Of a stretch of DNA of 64,000 nucleotides, positions 9,916-61,607 are shown one piece after another (position 1 is the stretch's first letter; each line of letters opens with the position of its first letter). The DNA comes from an uncultured Halobacteriovorax sp. (GTDB lineage: Bacteria; Bdellovibrionota; Bacteriovoracia; Bacteriovoracales; Bacteriovoracaceae). The translations under genes and the position numbers were made by a program. The stretch covers positions 62,001 through 126,000 of the forward strand of contig CAJXVS010000001.1 of assembly GCA_913061265.1 (NCBI GenBank), read 5' to 3'. The notes below the pieces were generated by a model that was given only the letters and a program-made list of their open reading frames with translations, was not told the DNA's origin and made no database searches.

Positions 9916-11418
9916 CTAAGAACCCGTCTTAATTTCTTTGCCATCAAAACTCATAAAGGTCTCAACACCTTCTTGAGTCGTTGAGATATTAACAGGCCGC
10001 TTCCAAATGAAGTGAATATTCTTTAATGTCTCTGCCGCATAATTCAGATCAAGGTCAACACCCTGATGAACATGTCGTAAGAGAAGCTCACCTCTATTCT
10101 TAAAGTTAACTGCTTCAACTTCAATCACTGGTTGCCCAAAGTTAGTTAAGCTCGTGAGAAGCTTTCCTTTAATCTCTTCGAACTCTCTTGAATCTATCTC
10201 ATAACGGCCAGTTCTTGAGTTGTATTTATATGTGAAGAGTTGTTGTCTTTCACAGAATTCTTGAGTAAAGAACTCGTCAATAAAGGTAATATCATTGTGG
10301 GATTTTCTCACTTCAAAGATCTTTTCCCGCCCTAATCCTGTATCTAGATTCCAGTTCTCTTTGACTTCCATATTGGTGCATTCAAGATATTCTTTCCCAA
10401 ACTTCCCAGTATTCCAGCGGTATTCAATGTCACGAAAAAGCTCTATTCCAATTTTATATGGATTGATATTTTGCTTACTCATGGCCATGACTCCGGCATG
10501 ATGATCAGCAAAGTCAATAATCTCTGAAGCCTTTAAAGCTTTTTGAGTCATGATGGTTGAATGCCAATAACTGGCCCAACCTTCGTTCATAATCTTAGTC
10601 ATTCTTTGAGGTAAAAAGTAATAAGCTTCTTCTCGAAGGATTCCTAAAATATCTGCTTGCCACTCCTCTAAAGGAGCATGCTCAATTAAATAAAGCATGA
10701 CATCTCTTGGAGAGATATATCTTTCCGAATCATAATCAGAATTATGATCTTCTATTGGAAGTGGGGCTTGGCCTACTTGATCTCCATCATTACGGGCCTT
10801 TTGTCTCATAAATGACTTTAAGGCTGAAGACCTATCATCTGAGCTATCGTCTTGTTCTTCAACAACCATGCTCGCCATTCTTCTTCTTGCCACTTCTGGT
10901 GTTTCAAAAAGAACTGCTGGGTCTAATAAGTTTTCTAAACTTAAGATCTTATCAATAAAGACTTCGACAGCATCTTGTCCATAGCGGTCCATATAACGCC
11001 GGATCTTTGTGCCATGATTGGCCATGACGTCCATCATATTTTTATCTGTATTTGAGAACCAATAATTATTCTTAAAGAAGTCAGCATGGCCAAAAACATG
11101 GGCCATCACAATCTTTTGATCTACCCAGTGATTAGCGTTTAATAAGTAAGCATAGCAAGGCTTAGTATTGACAACCATTTCATAGATTTTCTGTAAACCG
11201 TAGGCATAGCCTTTAGAGAGTTGGTCATAGTCCATTCCAAAGCGCCAGTGTGGGTAACGGGCGGGGAAACCTCCCTGAGCAGCGAGAATATTAATCGTAT
11301 CGTAATCACAAACTTCGAAAACGACAGGATAGTAATCAAGTCCATACTCAAGAGCGTATTTTTCTATTTCAATTCTAAGTTCAGCTAGGGCGCCATCAAT
11401 AGGCTTTGATCTCATCAT
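9916..11418 (-). CDS. SpoVR family protein
   Basis: A 500-residue member of the SpoVR/YcgB family, a widespread cytoplasmic family whose molecular role is not settled; in Bacillus the homologue affects spore cortex. Visible signatures include the N-terminal YPVVFEVCDYDTIN and YPHWRFGMDYDQLSKGYAYG block, VMAHVFGHADFFKNN, and NEGWASYWHSTIM with conserved His/Glu that look metal-binding. It is the last gene of the prkA-yeaH-spoVR cluster, 2 bp after the YeaH-like stop, a gene order conserved across many Gram-negatives. GGGGAAG precedes the double ATG start. No membrane segment. Identification is firm; biochemical role is unknown. Confidence 0.93.
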   Translation of the reverse strand: MMRSKPIDGALAELRIEIEKYALEYGLDYYPVVFEVCDYDTINILAAQGGFPARYPHWRFGMDYDQLSKGYAYGLQKIYEMVVNTKPCYAYLLNANHWVDQKIVMAHVFGHADFFKNNYWFSNTDKNMMDVMANHGTKIRRYMDRYGQDAVEVFIDKILSLENLLDPAVLFETPEVARRRMASMVVEEQDDSSDDRSSALKSFMRQKARNDGDQVGQAPLPIEDHNSDYDSERYISPRDVMLYLIEHAPLEEWQADILGILREEAYYFLPQRMTKIMNEGWASYWHSTIMTQKALKASEIIDFADHHAGVMAMSKQNINPYKIGIELFRDIEYRWNTGKFGKEYLECTNMEVKENWNLDTGLGREKIFEVRKSHNDITFIDEFFTQEFCERQQLFTYKYNSRTGRYEIDSREFEEIKGKLLTSLTNFGQPVIEVEAVNFKNRGELLLRHVHQGVDLDLNYAAETLKNIHFIWKRPVNISTTQEGVETFMSFDGKEIKTGS

Positions 11419-11420
11419 CG

Positions 11421-12536
11421 CTACTTCCCCTTACCTAAAAAATCTTTAATAGAATCCAAAATGGCATCTTTATTTTTAATCTTTGAAAGGATCACTTCTT
11501 CGTTAGATTCGCCATATTTTGCATGGAGGTCTTTATAAAATTGTCCCGAACCATATCGACTTTCGACTTGACCATAACAAAAGACATTACTCTCAGGAAT
11601 AATGTCATTGTCTAAGATTTCAAGACAAAGCTTAGTATCATCAGTGGACCAGTTATCCCCATCAGAGAAATGAAAGGGATAGATATTCCATTCGGCACTA
11701 TTATAGTCACTTTGAATAATTTCTCTGCAGAGTTTTAAGGCCGAACTGATTAATGTCCCGCCCGATTCTCTGGTTTTAAAAAAGGTCTCTTCTTCAACTT
11801 CTTTAGCAGTAGCATCGTGAATAATATAACGAATCTCGATGTCCTTATACTGGCTTTTTAGCCAGAGGTTTATCCAAAAACTCTCTGTTCTAACAATTTC
11901 TTTTTGCTCGTCACCCATAGATCCAGAGACGTCCATCATATAGATAACCACGGCTGAGTTTTCAAACTCAACTTTGGCATCCGCACTTCGGTAACGCATA
12001 TCAGACTTAATAGGGACAACAACAGGATTGTTTGGATCGTATTGTCCCATAGCAATCTGTCTTTTTAGAGCTTCTTTATAAGATCTTTTATAATGCTTAA
12101 GTGAATCAGGACCTTGGGTACCAATGGAAGTATATTTCTCTGTTAGAGATTCCATTGTTTTTTTGCCTTTAGGCTCAATATTGGGAAGTTCCAATTCTTC
12201 ACCTAAAATAGAGGCCAGTTCATCAAGGCTTAAATCAACTTCAAGCTCTTTACTTCCCGCCTCGTTTCCGGCTTCACCTTCACCAGGTTCCCCTTCTCCT
12301 TCTTCACCTTCAACAGGATCACCTGCTTCACCGTCGCCTTGACCCATTCCCCCCTGTTGTTTATCTCCAAACTTGAACCTTGGAGTATCAATAGAGGGCA
12401 TGGGTATTTTAAATTGACCATCGCCTTTAGGGCTCGGCATCTCACCATTAGAGATATACTTACGAAGGTTATCTCTAATTCTGCCTTTTACAATTTTTCT
12501 AAACCTAGCATGGTCCCTTTTAATCGGGTGATCCAT
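11421..12536 (-). CDS. DUF444 (YeaH/YhbH) family protein with VWA-like domain
   Basis: A 371-residue protein. The N-terminus (about 1-55) is basic and carries the family signature [17 protein letters not shown] Gly/Glu/Asp-rich low-complexity stretch follows (about 60-100), then the C-terminal von Willebrand A-like domain with the MIDAS sequence [10 protein letters not shown] (about 195) and later SDGDNW. It is the middle partner of the PrkA-YeaH-SpoVR set, where it is thought to act with the PrkA kinase in stress or nutrient adaptation; the mechanism is not established. GGAGATTAA precedes the ATG, and the gene lies 12 bp after prkA. Confidence 0.93.
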
Positions 12537-12548
12537 TTAATCTCCAAT

Positions 12549-14603
12549 CTATGACTTTGCTGAGTCGCCTTTCGCAAAGATAGAAGCTACAAAGTTAAGG
12601 GCATCAGTGGCACAGATTTCACAGTAACCATGATTTTTGATAAGCCTCGACTTAACCACATCAATCTTCTCTTGAGTTTCTTTATCTACAACTTTAGAGA
12701 TAATTGTTGTTAGCTTAATTGAATCTTTTTGATCTTCAAAAAGCTTAAGCTCTAGGGCCCTATGAAGTCTTTCATTCATTTTGTAATCAAATTGTTTTCC
12801 TTCGATAGCAAGAGCACCAATATAGTTCATGATCTCTCTTCGGAAATCTTCCTTGCGGCTCTCTGGAATATCAATTTTCTCTTCAATCGAACGCATGAAC
12901 CTTTCATCAGCATCTTCTAATTTATTAGAATACTTATTTCTGATCTTCTCTTTTTGAGTATAGGCCTTAACATTATCAATATAGTTAGCGCATAAAGTCT
13001 GAATCGCTGTTTCATCTACACTGATAGCTTTTTGAACATCATTTTTAACTGTATCTTCATACTCTTGACGAGCAATAGCTAAGGACTCTTTCATATGATC
13101 TAACTGATCTGGTGAATTGATAAGCCCATGATGCTTAAGACCAGTTTCAAGTTCGTTGAAAACCATAAACGGATTCAAACAACCGACATGACCATTTTTT
13201 ACGAGAGCATTTGAGATTTTATCTTGAATATAACGAGGAGAGATCCCCTCTAGTCCTTCTCTTACCGCTTCTTTACGAAGTTCTTTAACATTGTCCTCAT
13301 TATAACCAGGAAGTGTTTTTCCATTATATAACTTTAACTTTTGAAGCTTTGTTAAGTCACTCTTTTTAGGCTCTTCTAGTCTAGTAAGAATTGACCAAGT
13401 CGCTGCCATCTCAATTGTATGAGGAGCAATATGCACATGAGGAATCTTTTCAGCATTAAAATCTTTTTGATAGATCCTTACCTCTTGATCAAGCCTCGTA
13501 ATATAAGGAACATCAATCTTTACTGTTCTATCTCTAAGCGCTTCCATAAATTCATTGTTTTGAAGTTTTCTAAATTCAGGCTCATTAGTATGACCTAAAA
13601 TAACTTCATCAATATGAGTCTGTGCAAACTTCTTAGGCTTAATACTCTGCTCTTGGGAAGCTCCAAGGAGATCATAGAGAAAGGCTACATCAAGCTTTAA
13701 CATCTCAATGAATTCAACGATCCCTCTGTTGGCGATATTAAATTCACCATCAAAATTAAAAGCTCTTGGATCTGAATCTGAACCATACTGAGCAATCTTT
13801 CTATAGTTGATATCCCCTGTAAGTTCCGTCGAGTCTTGGTTTTTTTCGTCTTTAGGTTGGAAAGTACCAATCCCAATTCTATCTTTTTCAGAGAGGATTA
13901 ATCTTTTCACTCTCACATGCCCCATAACTTTTTCCCAATTCCCATCATACTTCTCCATGTACTTGGCAAAAATAAAACGGTCAGCAGGACAAACTTCGCC
14001 TTTAATATTAATTTTAAGACCATCAACTCCCTTATTAACTTCTTCAAGGAATGACTTTCTAACTTCTACAGGAATTAACTTAAGTGGGTCTTCATGCATT
14101 GGGGAAGGGAATATTTTTTGACCGCCTAAGATATCAGTCTCTTCTTCGTCAAACCACTCGAAGGTATAAAGCGCCCCATCGTCGGTCTTAGCATAATGCT
14201 CTAATCCCTTCTTAATCATCCTTGCAATTGAAGACTTAGCCGAACCAACAGGTCCGTGAAGGAGAAGAACCCTTTTTTCTGTTCCATAACCAGCTGCTGC
14301 TGATTTAAAGAAGTTTGCTAACTTCATTAAATGAACATCAATACCAAAAACAGCATCTTTTCCACCATCAATTGGATCATCGAAAAAATGATATCTTGTA
14401 ATTTCTTTTTTATATTCGGTGTATTTAGTTTCACCGGCGGCCATGATCATGTCATGGATTCGTTGAAAGGCGTTTCTTGCGATCCTTGGATCTTCCGTTA
14501 CTTTGTCTACATAGTCTTGAAAAGTTCCAACCCAATGCAAGTGAGTAAAGTCACTTACTTTGTAGTTCTCCTTCATAAAATCAGTGATATTAATTTGGGC
14601 CAT
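12549..14603 (-). CDS. prkA: PrkA family serine protein kinase / AAA ATPase
   Basis: A 684-residue cytoplasmic protein. It has an N-terminal AAA-type domain with the P-loop [13 protein letters not shown] (about 110-125) and a C-terminal PrkA region; the family has been reported as Ser/Thr kinase and, in some species, as AAA+ protease. I placed the start at the ATG preceded by GGAGGG (MAQINITDF); an upstream ATG would add 15 residues without a ribosome binding site. First gene of prkA-yeaH-spoVR, transcribed away from a PP2C phosphatase gene. A TATAAT-containing promoter lies about 50 bp upstream. Residues 1-40 match the family N-terminus well. Confidence 0.95.
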
Positions 14604-14655
14604 GATCCCTCCGAGATAAGTTGAGCTCGAAATTCCCTTCCCGAGCATATTGAAT

Positions 14656-14684
14656 ATTATAACCTGTTAACTGCTCGATTTTAA
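14656..14684 (-). promoter_or_regulatory. putative promoter of the prkA operon
   Basis: Minus strand TTAAAA, 17-nt spacer, perfect TATAAT. Predicted start about 45 nt upstream of the prkA ATG. The -10 box is flanked by an inverted repeat CGAGCA (14642-14647) and TGCTCG (14672-14677), which could be a repressor site. Confidence 0.5.
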
Positions 14685-14719
14685 AAGACAAAAACTTACT
14701 TTACATACCGCACAGCTTT

Positions 14720-14769
14720 CCGAGTATTTAACTCACCTAATAGGAAATAATTGCCGAGTAAAACACTCA
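14720..14769. promoter_or_regulatory. two tandem dyad sites in the prkA/PP2C divergent control region
   Basis: Two copies of CCGAGT-N5-ACTCA, at 14720-14735 and 14754-14769, 34 bp apart start to start (about three helical turns). Each contains the 4-bp inverted arms GAGT and ACTC. They lie upstream of both the prkA and the PP2C promoter candidates, so one regulator could control both. The 331-bp gap (14604-14934) holds the prkA promoter, these dyads, a TTTGGG/CCCAAA inverted repeat at 14819-14835 and the PP2C promoter; I see no gene in it. Confidence 0.5.
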
Positions 14770-14872
14770 AAGATAAAAGGCCCTTAAACAAAGGTTTCAC
14801 TGGGTTCTGTCAAAAAGTTTTGGGTTGTCCCCAAAGATGGACAATTAAACTCATTTTTTTTGAAGCATAACG

Positions 14873-14901
14873 TTGACAAAAATTACCTACCCTCTCAAAA
14901 T
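14873..14901 (+). promoter_or_regulatory. putative promoter of the PP2C gene
   Basis: Perfect TTGACA followed by a 17-nt spacer and CAAAAT (4/6). The predicted start lies about 27 nt before the GTG start codon. The perfect -35 box makes this the likeliest promoter of the PP2C gene. Confidence 0.45.
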
Positions 14902-14934
14902 AAATCTTACTAATCTTAATAATAAAGAGGCATT

Positions 14935-15678
14935 GTGGGACTACTCTCTTCAGGAGCGACACATATAGGAATGAAGAGGAAGACCAATCAGGACTCGATC
15001 TATCTTAATCCTAAAAAGAACATCTTCGTTGTAGCCGATGGAATGGGCGGTCACAATGGTGGCGATATAGCTTCTGCCATGGCAGTTAAATATATTCCTG
15101 AATATATCTTAAAGAATTATGGTGACGAGCCAGTCAAGGCCACAGAAAAATCAATTCAATATGCCAATAATAATATCAAGGCCAGAGGCGAGCAAGATGA
15201 AAAACTAGTGGGCATGGGAACTACTGTTGTTAGTTTTTACTTCAAAGGCCCAAACCTCTACCTAGGAAATGTTGGCGATAGCCGCGCTTATTTAATAAAT
15301 AAGAAAAAGCTATTTCAACTCACTAAAGATCATTCTCTTGTTCAAGAAAAACTTAATTTAGGCCTGTATGACAGAACAGAGGCTGCAGCTGACCCTCAGA
15401 AAAATGTTCTCGTTCGAACAGTTGGCTTTGAAGAAGATGTTGAAGTTGACTCATTTACCTATAAAGTTTCGCGTAACGACATTTTCTTGTCCTGCAGCGA
15501 TGGTCTGCACGGGAAAGTAAGCGACCCGGACATTCTACATATTGTTGATAACTATATTCCCGATCCATCTAAGTGCACCCAAGTCGCCTTAGACGATTGT
15601 GTTAAAGCTCTCATCGCCCAGGCCAATGCCAATGGTGGGAATGACAATATCAGCGTCGTCCTTGTGGTCGCCAAATAG
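14935..15678 (+). CDS. PP2C-type Ser/Thr protein phosphatase
   Basis: Metal-dependent phosphoprotein phosphatase of the PPM/PP2C (Stp/PrpC) class, 247 residues, cytoplasmic. Metal-binding and catalytic motifs are in order: RKTNQDS (N-terminal), VVADGMGGHNGG (Asp/Gly pair), GMGTTVV, LGNVGDSRAYL, LTKDHSLVQ, FLSCSDGLHG and GGNDNISVVLV (final Asp). The start is GTG, chosen because AAAGAGG lies 6 bp upstream and the family usually begins shortly before the RKTNQDS block. It diverges from prkA, an unusual and suggestive pairing of a protein kinase operon with a phosphatase. The M23 peptidase gene follows after 100 bp. Confidence 0.95.
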   Translation: MGLLSSGATHIGMKRKTNQDSIYLNPKKNIFVVADGMGGHNGGDIASAMAVKYIPEYILKNYGDEPVKATEKSIQYANNNIKARGEQDEKLVGMGTTVVSFYFKGPNLYLGNVGDSRAYLINKKKLFQLTKDHSLVQEKLNLGLYDRTEAAADPQKNVLVRTVGFEEDVEVDSFTYKVSRNDIFLSCSDGLHGKVSDPDILHIVDNYIPDPSKCTQVALDDCVKALIAQANANGGNDNISVVLVVAK

Positions 15679-61417: not shown

Positions 61418-61607
61418 CTTTAACCCCTTTCATTTTGCTCAATATTGATTCTAACTTAGTTATCGGTTTTTTTTATTGATTAATTTAGTCGGTTAGTGAA
61501 AAAAGACTCAAAAAGCCAACGAAACAAGGCGAAAATGAGTTGTGATTTTATCGAAACACTTAATATTTTCAATCACTTAAGAAAAGTATGAACGAGATTG
61601 CCCATAC

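Follow-up and report, generated by a model that had tools for sequence, protein, structure and literature searches.

The PrkA-YeaH-SpoVR system is widespread and is strongly induced in growth arrest of other bacteria, and its mechanism is disputed; a kinase role has been claimed for PrkA, and a 2026 study ascribes negligible kinase and protease activity to a Bacillus PrkA (PMC13001217). In E. coli, the yeaGH promoter is bound by NtrC and the operon is subject to sigma-54 and sigma-S control (PMC4664914). The prkA-vWA-spoVR operon of Rhizobium etli is reported to be under (p)ppGpp, RpoN1 and NtrC (PMC3188799). A search of open-licence papers returned no description of the motif presented here or of prkA regulation in the order Bacteriovoracales.

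The window analysed is the whole stretch of 64,000 nt from contig CAJXVS010000001.1 (GCA_913061265.1), belonging to a Halobacteriovorax-like member of Bacteriovoracales with a genome of 3.97 Mb. The closest named relatives of this host belong to the same order (Halobacteriovorax, Bacteriovorax), and two sister species, G001 and G002, have a PrkA that is 98% identical to that of the host. The genes and promoters at the locus are as follows.

12549..14603, minus strand: prkA, first gene of the operon (Pfam AAA_PrkA and PrkA_C)
11421..12536, minus strand: yeaH (Pfam DUF444)
9916..11418, minus strand: spoVR (Pfam SpoVR)
14935..15678, plus strand: PP2C-family protein phosphatase gene, GTG start, divergent from prkA (Pfam PP2C)
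14656..14661 (read 14661-14656), minus strand: prkA -10 box TATAAT, without a clear -35
14873..14901, plus strand: PP2C promoter TTGACA-N17-CAAAAT, near-consensus sigma-70

The four gene identities had been proposed by a sequence-only reading of this DNA, and the Pfam assignments agree with all of them. A gene for an M23 peptidase and then secA lie downstream of the PP2C gene. Orthologues of prkA are present in 122 of 129 genomes of the order (E<=1e-200), and prkA and a PP2C gene are divergent neighbours in 102 of the 110 genomes retrieved, which represent 44 genera. This conserved neighbourhood points to a phosphatase acting together with the PrkA-YeaH-SpoVR system or in opposition to it.

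The locus resembles E. coli yeaGH in that the operon is orthologous and is there under a dimeric DNA-binding activator (PMC4664914). It differs in that the -10 is of the sigma-70 type, and neither NtrC sites (TGCACC-N5-GGTGCA, 1.1 genera against 0.9 in controls) nor sigma-54 promoters (TGGCAC-N5-TTGCW, 2.8 against 1.6) are enriched in the intergenic regions. The R. etli operon consists of the same three genes with prkA first; the locus described here differs in having no sigma-54 promoter signature, and a divergent PP2C gene is not mentioned in the passages on that operon (PMC3188799). Motifs for CRP (TGTGA-N6-TCACA; 2.8 against 2.3 genera), FNR (TTGAT-N4-ATCAA; 13.3 against 11.5), LexA in its E. 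coli-type consensus (CTGT-N8-ACAG; 1.0 against 1.5) and a LysR-type, OxyR-like factor (ATAG-N7-CTAT; 5.6 against 4.3) also occurred at about the level of the controls, the last sharing a gap of 7 with the dyad described below and differing from it in the arms. None of these six motifs fits as an explanation of the dyad. The sequence TTGAC-N4-GTCAA was found in 8.4 genera against 2.5, an excess that probably reflects TTGACA -35 boxes.

Conservation of the dyad between prkA and the PP2C gene

The intergenic region contains two copies of CCGAGT-N5-ACTCA on the plus strand, CCGAGTATTTAACTCA at 14720-14735 and CCGAGTAAAACACTCA at 14754-14769, spaced 34 bp from start to start. The copies are placed exactly as first read and are the only exact ones in the 3.97 Mb genome, where base composition predicts about 1.25; two within 34 bp are thus not attributable to chance. 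Allowing one mismatch, matches elsewhere in the genome are at chance level (41, compared with 48 for the reversed pattern). The elements considered below are these.

14718..14738, no strand: dyad 1, the putative 21-bp operator, exact in the window and the conserved copy; core CCGAGTATTTAACTCAC at 14720-14736
14752..14772, no strand: dyad 2, specific to the host genome; core CCGAGTAAAACACTCAA at 14754-14770
14743..14870, no strand: additional DNA of the host genome, about 120 bp with approximate boundaries, containing dyad 2 (from alignment with G001 and G002)
14642..14677, no strand: inverted repeat around the prkA -10, CGAGCA at 14642-14647 and TGCTCG at 14672-14677

When all short dyads were counted without bias in the 102 intergenic regions, GAGT-N5-ACTC came out on top (4 genera against 0.07 in shuffles), together with GAGC-N5-GCTC (3 genera against 0.03). 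Among 6-mers, CCGAGT ranked second in enrichment, behind only TTGACA, which occurs in 28 of the 44 genera against 5.3 in shuffles. A motif fixed from the window, CCGAG-N7-CTCGG, was then scored in 99 genomes of 43 genera with the host genus left out; at 8 or more matches out of 10 it reached 8.1 genera-equivalents at gap 7 and at most 1.8 at any other gap, which puts it at the top of 270 controls with permuted arms and gaps. The refined palindrome of 21 bp reads aCCYGASYNNNNNRSTCRGgt, and its position matrix (11.4 bits) finds sites of at least 6 bits in 78 genomes and 32 of the 44 genera, or in 26.5 genera-equivalents of 44 at 8.5 bits or above, leaving about a quarter to a half of the genera without a clear site. 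A matrix trained on half of the genera and scored on the other half found a site in approximately 54% of the held-out genera, compared with 2.9% of shuffles. These fixed-motif controls and held-out matrices replaced a palindromic expectation-maximisation with an independent-base background, which had drifted to AT-rich junk at every gap. Upstream of prkA outside the order, the matrix site is not reliably found.

With the same matrix, dyad 1 scores 14.3 bits and is the top site of the 64 kb window, and dyad 2 ranks fourth with 11.9 bits. A separate match of 13.5 bits lies at 61474-61494 of the window, between two divergent, functionally unassigned genes. In both sister species dyad 1 alone is present, in register (CCGAGGGCTTAGCTCGG and CCGAGCACTTAGCTCAA), and dyad 2 sits in the approximately 120 bp of DNA that is absent from them. 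Two close strong sites were found in just one other genome (G034), 23 bp apart. In this comparison of genomes, the conserved unit is the single dyad, not the pair. The initial proposal that the paired dyads form the element of one dimeric regulator is consequently kept in part: a single dyad, probably a dimer-bound operator, is conserved in the prkA/PP2C intergenic regions of the order, whereas the 34-bp pairing is peculiar to the host genome.

It is extremely improbable that the dyad is a chance or inherited sequence devoid of function. The motif is short, and neither the second copy nor the repeat at the -10 is conserved; against this, the dyad and its exact gap are kept in genera in which the intergenic DNA around them has diverged from that of the host, and for the single dyad the 270 arm and gap controls refute the idea.

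The promoter boxes that had been read on either side, TATAAT for prkA and TTGACA for PP2C, are present, and the two kinds of promoter are conserved throughout the order, the prkA -10 appearing at the corresponding place as ATTATA, ATTGTA or ATTTTA on the plus strand. The prkA promoter thus combines a conserved -10 with the absence of a good -35, and the PP2C promoter is near-consensus. The CGAGCA/TGCTCG repeat flanking the prkA -10, to which attention had also been drawn, does exist in the window, but it is disrupted in the two sister species (CGAGCT / TAGTCG) and is probably not functional. Another inverted repeat, GCTCG-N12-CGAGC at 14624-14646 in the presumed prkA leader, is identical in the three genus members. 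In the prkA leaders of genera g3, g16 and g60, a common short word, CC[GA]TCC[TG]T[AG]G on the plus strand, stands beside the prkA start.

A DNA operator or an RNA structure

An inverted repeat with a fixed gap is conserved among orthologous promoters, and it lies upstream of both predicted promoters, hence outside the predicted transcripts. Pairing between the half-sites across the order does not exceed what independent halves predict (Watson-Crick pairing of 0.24 against 0.29 at position 3 and of 0.29 against 0.37 at position 6), and this order-wide test did not bear out the apparent covariation of the arms in the genus (GAGT/ACTC, GAGC/GCTC). Folding of the two window copies is no stronger than that of shuffled sequences (z -0.7 and -1.4). 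Taken together, the independent halves, the weak folding and the position upstream of both promoters fit a protein that reads each half of a DNA site.

These same observations, with the lack of a T-tail at the window dyads, make it very improbable that the palindrome is an RNA hairpin, whether a transcription terminator or an mRNA-end structure, even if many of the perfect CCGAG-N7-CTCGG palindromes at other places in these genomes are stem-loops that resemble terminators. Stem-loops of the type CCGAG...CTCGG at L223, L233, L250, L259, L262, L264 and L269 are terminator-like in several genomes, several of them being followed by T runs on one strand.

We propose that the dyad is an operator, aCCYGASY-N5-RSTCRGgt, for a dimeric transcription factor in the prkA-yeaH-spoVR / PP2C region of Bacteriovoracales, most likely acting on prkA; we give this reading a probability of about 0.72. 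The binding of a protein is very probable in view of the conservation, the symmetry, the independence of the halves and the position relative to the promoters. In our judgement this is a genuine, conserved operator of a common type, belonging to an operon about which little is understood. Its conservation across predatory-type bacteria makes it a practical starting point from which to find the regulator through DNA-affinity capture.

The probable target of the proposed operator and the search for a regulon

The distance from the centre of the dyad to the prkA -10 is 67 bp in all three genus members, and across the order the distances cluster at 43-45, 54-57, 60-67 and 74-78 bp. Helical phasing on this side is weak (R=0.45 for a period of 10.5 bp, with a nominal p=0.009 that becomes p=0.034 if the period is fitted as well), and there is none in the distances on the PP2C side (p=0.37). 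The extra DNA of the host genome puts dyad 1 at 145 bp from the PP2C -35, compared with 25 bp in the sister species. In two related genomes of one lineage, G085 and G088, insertions of approximately 11 kb break the divergent pair (G085:C102:66308-77193 and G088:C2:65900-76785). With this island between prkA and PP2C, a site of 9.5 bits is retained near prkA, and the displaced PP2C gene has no site above 5.4 bits. In G060, where prkA and PP2C are also separated, no clear site was found on either side. The phasing on the prkA side, the site kept near prkA and a prkA promoter without a good -35, as opposed to a near-consensus PP2C promoter, favour an upstream activator site for prkA. This gene is the better-supported target, and control of PP2C by the operator is possible.

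Divergent promoters that share an upstream activator site are a general arrangement in bacteria. The present region resembles it in having one palindrome between back-to-back promoters and helical steps in the spacing, and differs from it in that the phasing is confined to the prkA side. The sequence-only reading had gone further, with one dimeric regulator controlling both the kinase operon and the phosphatase. Bound at a shared operator, such a regulator would activate or repress the two divergent promoters in step. Such joint control is conceivable, if somewhat doubtful. It would agree with the divergent gene order found in 102 of 110 genomes, and in most genera the centre of the dyad also precedes the PP2C -35 by 20-37 bp, which puts it at about -56 to -73, a usual position for an activator. 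It is at odds with the unphased PP2C-side distances, with the separated PP2C gene of G060, which keeps a TTGACA-like promoter without a dyad, with the PP2C genes of G085 and G088, which also lack one, and with the window itself, where 111-145 bp separate the dyads from the PP2C -35.

In the preferred reading, with prkA as the main target, the two-fold symmetric operator would be bound by a putative dimeric factor. For the prkA promoter it would be an upstream activator site of class-I type, with its centre near -79 in the host genome; the PP2C promoter may come under its influence as well where the two are close. Activation rather than repression is the most likely mode, as judged from position. 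In the host genome, dyad 2 is 34 bp more distant from prkA than dyad 1 and the PP2C gene has been displaced, and the pair would probably serve prkA. It can be surmised, as a rather doubtful extension, that an order-specific factor sets the balance between PrkA-YeaH-SpoVR and PP2C through this operator of 17-21 bp, tied to the predatory or growth-arrest cycle.

We regard as unlikely that the operator belongs to a broad regulon, including for example flagellin, sucA and secreted proteins, of a global growth-phase regulator. High-scoring matches in the host genome are mostly intergenic and often between divergent genes, a motif variant has approximately 16 matches against 2 for the reversed control in the g14 genomes, including sucA in two species, and 21 of 38 flagellin leaders score at least 8.5 compared with 1.2 expected. 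Nevertheless, the strict palindrome shows no genome-wide excess (15 genomes matched, the reversed control being similar), two extra sites that were tested (L055, L051) are not clearly conserved in the sister species, and the flagellin leader copies, which in the clearest cases stand downstream of a sigma-28-like promoter, show RNA-like pairing that includes G-U. Perfect palindromes across the genomes were set aside as a regulon, being mostly terminators or inside genes. The target searches thus established no regulon, and the leads are the sites upstream of sucA and the divergent promoters of the host genome. Operator-like sites lie directly upstream of sucA, encoding 2-oxoglutarate dehydrogenase E1, at L289 and L296 in two species of g14.

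The flagellin leaders were rejected as operator targets: their arms show RNA-type pairing with G-U included, which the prkA sites do not. In many genera one flagellin gene has, 33-55 bp ahead of its start codon, a palindromic stem-loop that is conserved (L315-L333; in the host genome, G000:C3:467897-467915). Where a sigma-28-like promoter is visible, the stem-loop is downstream of it. Because the arms pair with G-U included, this stem-loop is probably an mRNA leader hairpin.
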